Source of the DNA: Arctopsyche grandis
Taxonomy: Eukaryota; Arthropoda; Insecta; Trichoptera; Hydropsychidae
Assembly: GCF_051622035.1 (NCBI RefSeq)
Contig: NC_135359.1
Span: 29,293,501-29,357,500, forward strand
Direction of reading: 5' to 3'
Length of the DNA: 64,000 nucleotides
This document shows positions 2,488 to 64,000 of this stretch, in pieces. The stretch's first letter is position 1. Each line of letters opens with the position of its first letter. A program made the position numbers and the translations under genes. The notes beneath the pieces were generated by a model. The model searched no databases. It had not been told where the DNA came from and worked only from the letters and a program-made list of their open reading frames with translations.

Positions 2488-3344
2488 TGTAGGAATCTCG
2501 TCGTCGTCATCGTCATCGAAACCTTCGAGAATATTCCGCAACAACAAAATACATCGAGCGGAACAGCGCCAAGCATTCCAGAAAATACTACGCCTCGACG
2601 AAAGCAAATTCCCCTTGTACGCATCAACAACTAAATGCTCGTACGACCACTTCCATCAAGCATTCCAGAAAATTCTACGCCTCGACAAAAGTGCATTCCT
2701 CTTGTACGCATCAACAACTAAATGCTCGTACGACCACTTCCATCAAGCATTCCAGAAAATTCTACGCCTCGACAAAAGTGCATTCCTCTTGTACGCATCA
2801 ACAACTAAATGCTCGTACGCATCAATAACCACTTCCATCAAGCGTTCCAGAAAATTCTACGCCTCGACAACAGTGCATTCCTTTCTTACGCATCAACAAA
2901 CCACCACCATCGGTCAGGCGATTCCAGAAACACTATAAAAGGAGGTACAACCCAAACAACGCCAGTCGACCCACAGCAGCAAGCGTCGACACACAGCAGC
3001 AGATCAGTCAACATACAGCTCCTGACCAGCCACCACTACACTACGCGGACTTGGAAGATCAACCAGCCGGACGAGCCAGCAACACACTGCCGTATCCAGA
3101 GACCTTCCGAACATAGCCGAACACCGAGCCAGCAACACACTGCCGCATCCAGAGACCTTCTGAACATAGCTGAATGCCGAGCCAGCGACACTCTACCATA
3201 TCCAGAGACCGATGAACGACATACTTTTGCCCACAAATACCATACCTTTGTACAACCATAGGCAAACAATAAAACTTTATAAAACTAGCACAACAGTGTT
3301 TCGTTAGGCCGGGATACGGTCAACACATACCTACCCCGCCTACA
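2488..3344 (+). repeat. 3' LTR (857 bp) of the element at 277-3344
   Basis: This copy of the 277-1129 LTR has one extra CGTCAT unit. It ends ACCCCGCCTACA immediately before the GACT target duplicate. Confidence 0.9.
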
Positions 3345-15599: not shown

Positions 15600-16970
15600 A
15601 TAGAACATTCAATATCATTTCAAAAACGTTAACTTTTTGTACAAGCTATTGCCACCAATTTTGAATCGCCAGCCAGCCATTAGACCGGTTATTGCCAACA
15701 ATTTGTTTGTTTCGATATACTGGAGAAATAAGTAAGTACGAGTGGAAACTAGACATGAACTATTTAAAATCGTGACATGTGACATTTTTCAAGAGCTACG
15801 AAAAGAGCGGATCTCCTCGTCCGTTGAAATGCAGTAAACTTAACGAGACGAACGGTACAGCTATCGTTCGACTATAAATTCACCGCGCTCCTAAAAAATA
15901 TGCAAGAATTACAAACGCAATCAGAAAATCACCACTTATGAAATATAACTGACCTGTATCGCTATGAAAAATAGCCGTCTCGAATGAATTCCAGTTCAGA
16001 GAGGGCTAGTACATATAATAATTAAAAAAGCTAGATAGTTTTGTATCCGATAAGCACCTGCGCGGATTCTATTACAACTTGTGACAAATTAAACTAAATT
16101 ACCACAGTAGTGAACACCACAAGTATTGTCACCAGAGTTACAACGAATAAGCAGAGTCAACAACCAGTGGTTTGCGATCACAAATTATTCGCTTAAAAGA
16201 GGCAATCGATATATATATATCGTAACAATAGATATGATATATACATATGTATGTAGATAGCAGTGTTTCCCATTTGGGAATAAGCAAGGAGTCGTTTAGG
16301 GGTAACTTTTTTGCCAAGCGTTGCATGGGATGGTTTTCTATTAAGGATTGCAATCTACCGGTAAAATATGTAAATTAAAAAAAAAATTACGTGGATTAGA
16401 TAGCTGTATGTGGTTATTTTTCCTTAAAACTTGCATCCAGATTGAACCATAAAAAATTACTTCAATCAAAAACGTTAACAAACCTTAAAAAAAAGTTTTT
16501 TAAAAACATACCTCTTCTATAATTTGTATATAAAATTATTATTTTGAATAATAATACCAATAATTTTATTTTACTACCGCCATCTATGTTTAAAACTAAT
16601 AAACAAACGGTGGATAAACGTCAACGACTATCTCGCCGGGCAGATTTCAAACGCGTCTTACACGATATTTTTGCACCATCGTAATGGCGGAGGATCCATT
16701 TACTTATATTGATGACCAAAATGAGCAATATGGCCAAGTATGAAAACGATCGGATAAGAGGCAAACTTTTTCCTGAATTGTAATCGTAAGTGAAACGTAA
16801 AGGAGGTATGTAAAAATTAAAAATAAATTTAATCAAGTCCATTCGTAAACATTAATAAATAAAAATTAAAAATCGGCCACTAAAAAAAAATTAGATATGT
16901 AACTGTGTGTGGTTACTTTTCTAAATTAGTCTAAATTAATTAATAAGGTGAATAATAATGTCCATTTGTA
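15600..16970. other. Intergenic DNA without recognised gene
   Basis: Homology between the ISCU copies ends near 15598. The rest is AT-rich. About 16560-16860 is a reversed, diverged member of an interspersed repeat also seen at 47380-47800 and 58800-59190 (shared CGATCGTTTT and GGTCATCAATATAAGTGG-like motifs). Confidence 0.5.
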
Positions 16971-16971
16971 A

Positions 16972-17204
16972 TCTAATATATAATTTCGAACGAGACTTTG
17001 TATGTAAGGTTTTAAGGTTCGGGTGGGAGCATCGAAAACAAATCAAATTTTCTATGACGACGACATCGATATCGTTGAATATTATTATTTTTCGATTCAA
17101 ATACATTTAATAAAAAAACAAATGCATGTTTACTATTAGATTGTTTTGCCATGTTTAAGCTGTTTACATTACAAATACCGAGCGAAGCCGGGTAAATCCT
17201 CTAG
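16972..17204 (+). mobile_element. Short non-autonomous Helitron A
   Basis: It starts TCTAATATATAATT after an A and ends GCGAAGCCGGG...CTAG before a T, the Helitron rule. It is 233 bp. The ends match those of the 2.6-kb Helitron at 60954-63547. Confidence 0.65.
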
Positions 17205-17227
17205 TAATACATAGAGTCCATTTGTAA

Positions 17228-17445
17228 TCTAATATATAATTCCGAAAGAGACTTTGTATGTATATTTGTTTGGTTCGTAAAATCCGTGACTTTCAATTTG
17301 ATAAAAAAAAACAAATGAATATTCAAATAAATTTAAATAAAATAAAACTATTCAAATAGATTGAATAAAATGTTTACTATTTAGATTGGCCATGTTTGAG
17401 CGGTTTATATTACAAATACCGAGCGAAGCCAGGTAAAAACACTAG
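17228..17445 (+). mobile_element. Short non-autonomous Helitron B
   Basis: It has the same ends as copy A, begins 24 bp further on in the same direction, and again lies between A and T. Both copies also share about 10 bp upstream (GTCCATTTGTA), so they may be a tandem duplication rather than two insertions. Confidence 0.65.
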
Positions 17446-60109: not shown

Positions 60110-60950
60110 ATTTAAAGTTTGGACCATTGTAGCATAACAGGAATTCTTAATGCGCCACAATGGTTAAAAATATAACTCTATATTGCTGTCGGTTCCCTCA
60201 TCACTGAGGATCGTGACTATGATGTGCGGTCAACCAGCTGCCTCCATTCAGTTCTAAATTCGGCCAGGCGAAGACTTGCTACCGTGGAAGCGCCCGTCGC
60301 TGCAGATACTTGGTCAGTCCAGCGTGCGGGGGATCTGCCTCTGGCTCTTCTGCCTTCGACGCTACCAACCACAACCAACCGCTCCAGGCTCTCCTCACCT
60401 CTTTGTGCAATGTGGCCGAAGAACTGCAATATACGTTTCAGGCATATTGTTGACAATCTATCCTTGATTTTCAATTCTTCAAGAATAGACACATTCGTGC
60501 GTTTGTCAGTCCAAGGCACGCGCAGTAGCCGTCTCCAGGACCACATCTCGAAGGCATCGATTCTCCGTCTATCCGCCGCCTTCATGGTCCACGTCTCGAC
60601 ACCATAAAGGCAGACAGAAAAAACGAGACTCTTCACGAGACGGATTTTGACAGCAGTTGTAATGGCTCTATTCTTCCAAATCTTCGTTAGTTGTGACATT
60701 GCCGATTTTGCTAATGTAATCCGGCGCCGTATTTCCAATTCGCTGCCGCCGTTGTTAGATATGAGTGACCCCAGATAGACAAAATTATCAACCACATCTA
60801 TACCGTTTAAAGCTGAGTTGTTGTTTTGCAGCTGTTGGTGACGGTCAATTATCATAATTTTTGTTTTGGGGCGGTTTATCTGGAGGCCAAGCACATTACT
60901 CTCTGTCTCAACACGACGGATCAGTTCGGCCATTTCTTCATGATTATTAG
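60110..60950 (-). pseudogene. RTE-type LINE reverse transcriptase, C-terminal part
   Basis: The open frame 60952-60217 continues the RT cut at 63548. It includes LQINRPKTKIMI (RT motif), VYLGSLI, a CLYGVETWTM block, FEMWSWRRLLRVPWTDK and RARGRSPARWTDQV, the ordered post-YADD blocks of RTE-clade proteins. The 3' UTR hairpin and A-rich end lie at about 60105-60180. The frame is open, but a Helitron separates it from the catalytic part. Confidence 0.88.
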
Positions 60951-61163
60951 CTACTAGCTGTATTACCCGGCTTCGCTCAGTGTTTATAATATAAACCGCT
61001 TAAACATGACTAAGCTAATTTAATTAAAAAAAAAAAAAAAATTAAAAAATTAAAAAAAAAAATAAAAAAAAAAATAAAAAAAAAATCAAAAAAAAAATCA
61101 AAAAAAAAATAAAAAAAAAATCAAAAAAAAAATTTAAAAAAATCAAAAAAAAAAATCATTTTT

Positions 61164-62480
61164 TTTTTTTGCCTTCTAGGGCTTCGCCCTCGGCACCCCC
61201 CTGAGCCTTTGCCTTCTAGGGCTTCGCCCCTCCACGCCCCATGAGCAATTGCCGTTTAGGGCTTCGCCCCCCATGATCAGTTGCCTTTTAGGGCTTCGCC
61301 CCTCCGCGCCCCCATGATTCAAAGCCGTCTAGGGCTTCGCCCCCCTTAGTTAATGCCTTTTAGGGCTTCGCCCCCCGCGCCCCCAAGATTAATTGCCGTT
61401 TAGGGCTTCGCCCCCCTTAGTTAATGCCTTTTAGGGCTTCGCCCCTCCGCACCCCCATGATTAAATGCCGTCTAGGGCTTCGCCCCCCTTAGTTAATGCC
61501 TTTTAGGGCTTCGCCCCCCGCGCCCCCAAGATTAATTGCCGTTTAGGGCTTCGCCCCCCTTAGTTAATGCCTTTTAGGGCTTCGCCCCCCCGCCCCTAGG
61601 GCGGCGCCCCATAAGACTGCGCCCCTAAGGCTGCGCCCCATAAGACTGCGCCCCTAAGGCTGCGCCCCATAAGACAGCGCCCCATAAGGCTGCGGCCGAT
61701 AAGGCTGTGCCCCATAAAGCTGCGCCCCCTTTTGAGCCCCATGGGGCTGCGCCCCATGAGGCTGCGCCCTCATGAAAAAAAATTAATTAAAAAAAATTAA
61801 AAAATTTTAAAATTTTAAAAAAAAATTTTAAAAAAAAATTAAAAAAAAAATAAAAAAAAATCAAAAAAAAAATCAAAAAAAAAATCAAAAAAATTTTTTT
61901 AAAAAATAAAAAAAAAAATCAATTTTTTTTTTTGCCTTCTAGGGCTTCGCCCTCGGCACCCCCCTGAGCCTTTGCCTTCTAGGGCTTCGCCCCTCCACGC
62001 CCCATGAGCAATTGCCGTTTAGGGCTTCGCCCCCATGATCAGTTGCCTTTTAGGGCTTCGCCCCTCCGCGCCCCCATGATTCAAAGCCGTCTAGGGCTTC
62101 GCCCCCCTTAGTTAATGCCTTTTAGGGCTTCGCCCCCCGCGCCCCCAAGATTAATTGCCGTTTCGGGCTTCGCCCCCCTTAGTTAATGCCTTTTAGGGCT
62201 TCGCCCCTCCGCACCCCCATGATTAAATGCCGTCTAGGGCTTCGCCCCCCCTAGTTAATGCCTTTTAGGGCTTCGCCCCCCGCGCCCCCAAGATTAATTG
62301 CCGTTTAGGGCTTCGCCCCCCTTAGTTAATGCCTTTTAGGGCTTCGCCCCTCCGCGCCCCCATGATTAAATGCCGTCTAAGGCTTCGCCCCCATGATCAG
62401 TTGCCTTTTAGGGCTTCGCCCCTCCGCGCCCCCATGATTAATTGCCGTCTAGGGCTTCGCCCCCCTTAGTTAATGCCTAT
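61164..62480 (-). repeat. Minisatellite of GGGCTTCGCCC units
   Basis: About two dozen copies of (T/C)TAGGGCTTCGCCC occur, alternating GCCTTTTAGGG and GCCGTYTAGGG types spaced about 30-45 bp. The block with its preceding A-rich tract is itself duplicated (61020-61600 and 61780-62370). Between them, 61600-61770 holds a short GGCTGCGCCCCATAAG repeat. Confidence 0.9.
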
Positions 62481-62482
62481 TA

Positions 62483-63360
62483 GGGCTTGCGCCCCATGAG
62501 GCTGGGCCCCCCGGGCCCCCTTCGGGGCCCCACGGGGCTGCGCCCCTTGTGGCGCCCCCTTTTGAGCCCCATGGGGCTGCGCCCCATGAGGCTGGGCCCC
62601 CCGGGCCCCCATTCGGGGCCCCACGGGGCTGCGCCCCTTGTGGCACCCCCTTTTGAGCCCCATGGGGCTGCGCCCCATGAGGCTGGGCCCCCCGGGCCCC
62701 CTTCGGGGCCCCACGGGGCTGCGCCCCATGTGGCGCCCCCTTTTGAGCCCCATGGGGCTGCGCCCCATGAGGCTGGGCCCCCCCGGGGCCCCACGGGGCT
62801 GCGCCCCTCGTGGCGCCCCCTTTTGAGCCCCATGGGGCTGCGCCCCATGAGGCTGGGCCCCCCGGGCCCCCTTCGGGGCCCCACGGGGCTGCGTCCCTTG
62901 TGGCGCCCCCTTTTGAGCCCCATGGGGCTGCGCCCCATGAGGCTGGGCCCCCCGGGCCCCTTTCGGGGCCCCACGGGGCCCCACGGGGCTGCGCCCCTTG
63001 TGGCGCCCCCTTTTGAGCCCCATGGGGCTGCGCCCCATGAGGCTGGGCCCCCCCGGGGCCCCACGGGGCTGCGCCCCTCGTGGCGCCCCCTTTTGAGCCC
63101 CATGGGGCTGCGCCCCATGAGGCTGGGCCCCCCGGGCCCCTTTCGGGGCCCCACGGGGCTGCGCCCCTTGTGGCGCCCCCTTTTGAGCCCCATAGGGCTG
63201 CGCCCCATGAGGCTGGGCCCCCCCGGGGCCCCACGGGGCTGCGCCCCTCGTGGCGCCCCCTTTTGAGCCCCATGGGGCTGCGCCCCATGAGGCTGGGCCC
63301 CCCGGGCCCCCTTCGGGGCCCCACGGGGCTGCGCCCCTTGTGGCGCCCCTGGCGGGGCCC
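62483..63360 (-). repeat. GC-rich tandem array, 80/90/100-bp units
   Basis: The TTTTGAGCCCCATGGGG landmark recurs at 62560, 62651, 62741, 62821, 62911, 63011, 63091, 63181 and 63261, at intervals of 80, 90/91 or 100 bp. Length changes come from loss or gain of about 10-bp CCCGGGCCCC/GGGGCCCCAC pieces. Frames are open in several phases on both strands only because the sequence lacks stop codons. Confidence 0.92.
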
Positions 63361-63547
63361 CATGAAACTACTCGCCTTGCGCCCCCGCGGGGGTGAATCC
63401 ATTGAATCGAAAAAAACAAATCGGCGCCCATGGATCGAAAAAAAAAAAAAACGAATCACGTGTTCGATGACGTCACCGATCTACGGACGACGAAGAAGAC
63501 GACGACCAAGGATACATACAAAGTCTCTTTCCAAATTATAGATTAGA

Positions 63548-64000
63548 TGAGCGTTGTGTCATCCGCATACCGAAGATTGGATAGTTTTTTTCCACCAATG
63601 GACACTCCACCCTTCCAACCATCCAGTGCTCTACGCATTATATACTCTCCATATATATTAAATAGGTCTGGAGATAATATACACCCTTGCCTTACTCCAC
63701 GTTGTACTCGAAAATTTGTCGAGTTTAGCGAATTGATTCGAACTACTGCATTGTTATCATTATACAAGTTATGTATTATCTTTACAAGATGCATGGGGAC
63801 TCCCATGTCCAGTAGAACTTTCCACAGATAGTCCCAGTTCACAAAGTCAAAAGCTTTTTTATAGTCTATAAAACAAAGAACGGCTGGAGTTTGAAACTCC
63901 CGACATTTTTCAATGAGTTGACGTATATTCAGTATTTGTTCCCTCGTCCCTTTGCCTTTTACAAACCCTGCTTGTTCGTTCGGTATTTGCCATCCAAGGT
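63548..64000 (-). pseudogene. RTE-type LINE reverse transcriptase, catalytic part (partial)
   Basis: The minus frame runs off the window end. It contains CFIDYKKAFDFVNW (motif A), VQRGVRQGCILSPDLFNIY (motif B) and LRYADDTTL (motif C, YADD), and is then cut by the Helitron. It is open throughout. The endonuclease domain would lie beyond 64000. Confidence 0.88.

Follow-up and report, generated by a model that had tools for sequence, protein, structure and literature searches.

As far as the excerpts of the published accounts on which we draw go, canonical Helitron1 elements such as Helraiser and Helibat of bats begin with 5' TC, end with 3' CTAG and insert between A and T without target duplication, with a preference for AT-rich surroundings, above all on the 3' flank, and with 46 Helraiser insertions recorded at other dinucleotides (PMC4778049). 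Head-to-tail junctions are noted for canonical Helitrons, and where a right end is joined to a left end the transposase is shown to cut the plus strand (PMC5876387), and AT dinucleotides are reported for an active wheat family (PMC13286980). The FoHeli elements of Fusarium are credited with a longer, upstream target, TNAT next to T or A, in an account that also treats GAA-loop hairpins and discusses self-insertion (PMC5148889). Internal arrays are common in Helitron and Helentron elements (PMC12628747, PMC7492417), and the marks that distinguish HINEs are set out in PMC4067079. The family described here shares with the bat elements both terminal motifs, the A^T target, the lack of duplication and an AT-rich 3' flank, and with canonical Helitrons generally the head-to-tail junctions; it differs from Helraiser and Helibat in a base-specific ATA(A) at +7 or +8 of the target, in the likeness of that target to its own left end, and in a weak, putative 3' hairpin. 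It resembles HINE/DINE-1 elements in being non-autonomous and in its middle tandem arrays, which are frequent in that group (PMC4067079, PMC7492417, PMC12628747), but those elements have T-rich targets and subterminal inverted repeats, whereas here we find A^T, TC...CTAG and no such repeats. With FoHeli, as excerpted, it has in common a target that reaches beyond a dinucleotide, putative GAA-loop hairpins and the question of self-insertion; the additional target bases of FoHeli, however, lie upstream and its ends are Helitron2-like, whereas the additional motif lies downstream in the present family.

The element that introduced us to this family lies in a 64,000-bp stretch of the Arctopsyche grandis genome (G000:C5:29293501-29357500; genome 475.7 Mb, 189 contigs), hereafter the window. 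It is ordinary in kind, a recent Helitron in a young LINE, and its target rule is the interesting part. We put at roughly 90% the probability that it is a non-autonomous Helitron of canonical type, its Rep/helicase supplied from elsewhere, which inserted between A and T and thereby interrupted the reverse transcriptase of an APE-type LINE that is itself very young. The element has exact ends, which it shares with a family, is matched by empty sites, duplicated no target bases and is of recent age. Its parts and surroundings, in window positions, are as follows.

63548..64000, continuing outside the window, minus strand: LINE reverse transcriptase, 5' part to YADDTTL (RVT_1 match)
60954..63547, minus strand: non-autonomous Helitron, 2594 bp, 5' end 63547 and 3' end 60954 (empty sites; ends of relatives)
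63358..63547, minus strand: conserved left terminal region, starting TCTAATCTATAATTTGGAAAGAG (matches to the first 148 bp; 23-copy alignment of the first 175 bp)
62483..63349, minus strand: tandem array rich in GGGGCGCAGCCCC units (TRF, period about 90)
61973..62495, minus strand: tandem array of GGGCGAAGCCC units, block 1 (TRF, period 72/143)
61777..61924, minus strand: T-rich tract, the first of a pair (plus strand: A-rich)
61591..61769, minus strand: 15-bp repeats, GGGGCGCAGCCTTAT (TRF)
61210..61593, minus strand: tandem array of GGGCGAAGCCC units, block 2 (TRF)
61026..61155, minus strand: T-rich tract ahead of the right end (TRF)
60954..61013, minus strand: right terminal region, ending GAGCGAAGCCGGGTAATACAGCTAG (genome count of the last 25 nt)
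60967..60980, minus strand: possible terminal hairpin, CTG-A-GC-GAA-GC-CGG (reading of the sequence)
60944..60947, minus strand: ATAA at target +7 to +10, part of the extended target motif
60179..60953, minus strand: LINE 3' part, the remainder of the ORF with its stop at 60217 and a short 3' tail (paralogs spanning the junction)
16972..17204, plus strand: short relative, TCTAAT...CTAG
17228..17445, plus strand: second short relative, TCTAAT...CTAG

On the minus strand, the 5' flank of the LINE ends ACAACGCTCA at 63548, the insert runs from TCTAATCTATAATTTGG at 63547 downwards to GGGTAATACAGCTAG, with its last base at 60954, and the 3' flank starts TAGCTAATAATCATG at 60953, such that the 2594-bp segment TCTAAT...CTAG cuts the reverse transcriptase frame between A (63548) and T (60953). 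The Ile codon across the junction consists of that A and of TA (60953-60952), and joining both flanks by script yields a single open frame, YADDTTL-I-ANNHEEM, which reads YADDTTLIANNHEEMAEL. Empty sites were sought with a 301-bp query over the right junction, for which 40 of 1362 candidates were scored and seven loci read. All seven paralogous LINE copies read have the insert-free site ACGCTCA/TAGCTAATAATC, base-exact and free of any target-site duplication; the target is therefore A^T, with neither duplication nor loss, and the conserved register of the frame is not a one-in-three chance. Among the scored matches, 38 of the 39 outside the window stop exactly at the junction (query base 154) and are identical over those 154 bp, and the remaining one runs 16 bases past it, to query base 170, at 97%. 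The original prediction had placed the break one residue past YADDTTL, with an in-register restart at 60953; the joined flanks and the seven uninterrupted paralogs bear this out, and the A, the T and the insert termini it named are correct to the base at this site.

The 5' part of the LINE matches RVT_1 (E 1.4e-20), with Exo_endo_phos_2 outside the window, and a Pfam search with the 3' part alone returned no family above the cut-off. That part is tied to the 5' part by the paralogs, single copies of which align over the junction at 99.3-99.9%, so that the two reverse transcriptase parts do not come from different LINE families. Endonuclease and reverse transcriptase domains are common to this element and to APE-type non-LTR retrotransposons, and by its domain content the host appears to be a young LINE of APE type, perhaps of the RTE clade that the original prediction named. 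Against L007 and L005 the window LINE shows three differing positions (in 2275 and 2273 bases, respectively), against L003 and L004 four in 2275, against L006 two in 2176, against L008 ten in 2274 and against L002 11 in 1555. These figures are taken from BLAST rows; the accompanying alignment gives large private counts for L002 and L006, because BLAST found no LINE match at their 5' ends. A separation of two to four bases from five of seven paralogs, over about 2.2-2.3 kb, makes the Helitron insertion recent: so few differences mark the LINE copy as very young, and any element inside it, the Helitron included, must be younger still. The earlier inference of a recent insertion from two reverse transcriptase halves that were both still open thus stands, as does the openness of the joined frame itself.

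Within the insert, long open frames read through its repeats, and no transposase gene is apparent in what is otherwise a canonical-type, non-autonomous Helitron. Exact GGGGCGCAGCCCC units number 18 in the entire element, and a distal block is duplicated, element positions 1952-2531 being 95.7% like 1190-1768. Canonical Helitrons carry a hairpin about 11 bp from the 3' terminus; by reading of the sequence, a putative 3' hairpin, CTGAGCGAAGCCGG, lies 13 bases before the element end here, and in folding energy shuffled sequences performed equally well. Hairpins of the GC-GNA-GC type are unusually stable.

Exact copies of the last 25 nt number 1554 genome-wide, whereas the reversed control sequence has none. 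In a search with the first 148 bp of the insert, 41 of 1418 candidates, the window copy included, were scored and showed 83-100% identity; from the 40 non-window matches we fetched the best 20, chosen by left end. A matching 3' end is present in 19 of these 20, in elements of 1.1-3.7 kb, including L057, which keeps both ends and begins TT rather than TC. Other Helitrons with both ends, for which the original prediction advised a search, are at hand, and the identification as a Helitron is upheld by a repeat family with Helitron ends, by proven empty sites and by the lack of a target-site duplication. In the remaining relative, L043, foreign sequence starting TGTACAGACTCC interrupts the array from about 1007, and is perhaps a nested retroelement. 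Each of the 20 two-ended elements (19 relatives and the window copy) holds 12-54 GCGAAGC motifs, terminal included (27 internal units plus one in the 3' end in the window copy), and in every one the array has a single orientation. We considered whether strand-specific GNA-loop mini-hairpins are meaningful, and rejected the idea: the units share one orientation (loops were surveyed in three copies) but are no independent evidence, because they descend from a few repeat types. That internal GCGAAGC units act as efficient termination signals, like the terminal hairpin, was likewise rejected, as the window copy and all of the 20 fetched relatives but L043 pass through at least 11 of them and end at the true 3' end.

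Elsewhere in the window, gtccatttgtaa precedes both short relatives (within 16940-17230), as though one flank had been copied together with an insertion. Near the window start, similar tandem arrays occur in two pairs (353-682 and 2570-2899; 855-993 and 3072-3210), and the spacing of 2217 bp common to both suggests that a larger segment was duplicated there.

A search for the Rep domain Helitron_like_N gave 16 matches in this genome and none in any of 14 control genomes, and one match on contig C13 lies within an 836-aa open frame. Sequence was read at three of these loci, namely 9.9 kb on C13, 9.6 kb (one full repeat unit) on C3 and two 2.5-kb flanks on C9; it contains no ends of the family, and none of the three ties an autonomous partner with Rep and helicase to these elements. 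The C3 locus (L104; G000:C3:20710636-20738225) has a 9032-bp period, with four Rep matches in a row.

With respect to the base that precedes TCTAAT, the A^T rule taken from known Helitrons holds at the window site and loosens across the family, A being found at 23 of 33 left ends, T at six, G at three and C at one. Of the ten non-A ends, L025 stands after the CTAG of a family copy, L044 after ATAG, and L022 after the CTAG of an apparent 3' end of another Helitron. The other seven are preceded by a short pyrimidine stretch, which in five starts TC after A; an extra TC-starting stretch of this kind stands directly before TCTAATC in L012, L014, L016, L023 and L031, and suggests slippage or growth at the Helitron 5' terminus. 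A second Helitron-like 3' end, in which ACCCGTTGAAATCAACGGGT with its palindromic arms is followed by CCAACACTAG and T, was seen at two places, just before position 1501 of L022 and at bases 5-34 of the minus strand of L092; in L022 it directly adjoins the family left end.

Downstream of family 3' ends the landing site carries the motif T-N5-ATA(A), and the LINE target in the window reads T AGCTA ATAA. Genome-wide, T-N5-ATA follows 987 of 1554 3' ends and T-N6-ATA 291; together with the exact head-to-tail class these are non-overlapping and account for 1442, in counts that include duplicated copies and do not represent independent events. Background frequencies of ATA at T sites of the window are 3.1% at +7 and 3.9% at +8, and neighbouring sequence gives 3.0% at +7. 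A first set of 32 distinct 3' flanks, from the main family and the short relatives, has T at +1 throughout. A second sample consists of the 40 ends that head the list of 1554, and has T at +1 in 39, with ATA at +7 in 25 of the 40 and one base further on, at +8, in five; it comprises 35 distinct flanks, three of them already in the first set, and the 32 fresh ones show ATA at +7 in 23 and at +8 in four. In the union of 64 distinct flanks, T occupies +1 in 63, and ATA stands at +7 in 45 of them, with a further 11 at +8. Without the seven that represent insertions into 5' ends of the family, and without a TA microsatellite, 56 flanks are left, in which ATA is found at +7 in 42, at +8 in nine and at neither in five, and A at +16 in 41 (18/27 of the first set, 23/29 of the fresh set). 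In the text excerpts of the open-licence literature on Helitron targets we met neither a base-specific motif on the downstream side nor any connection of the target with the left end; such a motif may be visible in the sequence logos of PMC4778049 and PMC13286980, which are figures.

This extended motif, together with head-to-tail copies and the hairpin-like repeat units, goes beyond what had first been read from the locus. At 164 of the 1554 3' ends (duplicates included), the element abuts the 5' end of another copy exactly, CTAG/TCTAATCTATAATTTGG, which places ATA at +9. On one strand of G000:C1:10457071-10468594, six right ends stand in tandem, with a left end of the family after four of them, forming a Helitron nest.

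Two alternatives bear on what the window element is. An origin as a Helentron-derived HINE, of Helitron2 type, would account for the internal tandem arrays, which are described as common in HINEs (PMC4067079, PMC7492417, as excerpted), and is nonetheless very improbable. The window copy has the 5' TC and 3' CTRR termini of canonical Helitrons in the form TCTAAT...CTAG, and its A^T target, like the T-N5-ATA that follows 987 of 1554 ends, departs from the T-rich or TT sites that HINEs favour. Further, subterminal inverted repeats of 11-15 bp would be expected of a HINE, whereas a comparison of the first 80 with the last 100 bases for terminal inverted repeats gave a longest complementarity of 6 bp, equalled in 218 of 300 shuffles. 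The probability that the junction, as known from the assembly, is an artefact of it we consider negligible, given that both insert ends, like the empty site, are found again at many other loci and that the join is base-exact.

Two others concern the canonical Helitron's choice of target. Mere AT-richness, without base-specific reading, is suggested by the preference of Helraiser, strongest on its 3' flank (PMC4778049, in excerpt), and by ATA being raised among the 29 fresh flanks at +2 (10/29) and +4 (8/29) as well, to which general TA-richness is a fitting explanation. As a source of the main signal it is improbable: ATA occupies +7 to +9 in 22 of the first 32 flanks, against 0-7 at each other offset from +2 to +22, the peak is repeated in 21 of the 29 fresh flanks, against 1-10 at other offsets from +2 to +17, and in the 56 flanks G and C are absent at +7 to +9, with 10-14 at each of +3, +5 and +6. 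For the head-to-tail copies, the rival account is of rolling-circle concatemers rather than serial insertions into 5' ends. Such arrays have been proposed (PMC5148889, PMC12628747 and PMC5876387, in the parts available), the CTAG/TC junction is identical under both models, and a flank common to two of the six copies in the C1 cluster indicates that some duplication occurs. Against this, in the three pairs read out of 164 junctions the neighbours carry different left-end variants and are unlike in length (1107 v 2636, 1334 v 1342 and 2859 v 2377 bp), and in L037 and L056 the insertion is offset within a family 5' end. Concatemers thus seem the less likely origin, though a good deal more plausible than the other alternatives weighed here, and the differences between partners favour serial insertion.

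A reason for serial insertion at 5' ends may lie in the likeness of the target to the left end of the family, a likeness that can account for copies lying head to tail. From its third base onwards, TAATCTATAATTTGGAA, the left end itself fits T-N5-ATAA with A at +16. When the 56 flanks were compared with the left end, mean identity peaked at this third-base shift, at 8.68/19 over a background of 5.48 (z 11.8), with z of 1.5-5.2 at other shifts; outside the ATA core, the best shift reached z 3.5 and the others 0.3-2.7. Shared AT-richness accounts for part of this likeness. We think it somewhat better than an even bet that Rep selects a pseudo-left-end, namely DNA like positions 3 to 18 of the 5' terminus, with ATAA 6 to 8 bases past the cut, and that the family is thereby directed to 5' ends of its own kind, where movable head-to-tail nests form. 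In our main reading, a Rep/helicase from elsewhere would mobilise the element, an HUH Rep moving it as a single TC...CTAG strand or circle. Rep would then read a left-end-like stretch downstream, T-N5..7-ATAA with A favoured at +16, and would cut 6 to 8 bases ahead of it, at a T. Reading of this kind would explain both the LINE site, T AGCTA ATAA, and the insertions at sister 5' ends.

Published Helitron targets, in the excerpts consulted, amount to A^T plus AT-rich flanks, and the present family, through the 1554 identical right ends that a single genome contains, adds a base-specific motif that resembles its own left end. Target choice thereby becomes directly testable with short oligonucleotides and purified Rep. 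If the pseudo-left-end reading is true, one DNA-reading surface would serve both donor cutting and target choice, and homing to the family's own 5' ends would yield head-to-tail nests able to move as composites. A left-end-like target motif would thereby provide a simple route to head-to-tail Helitron nests.
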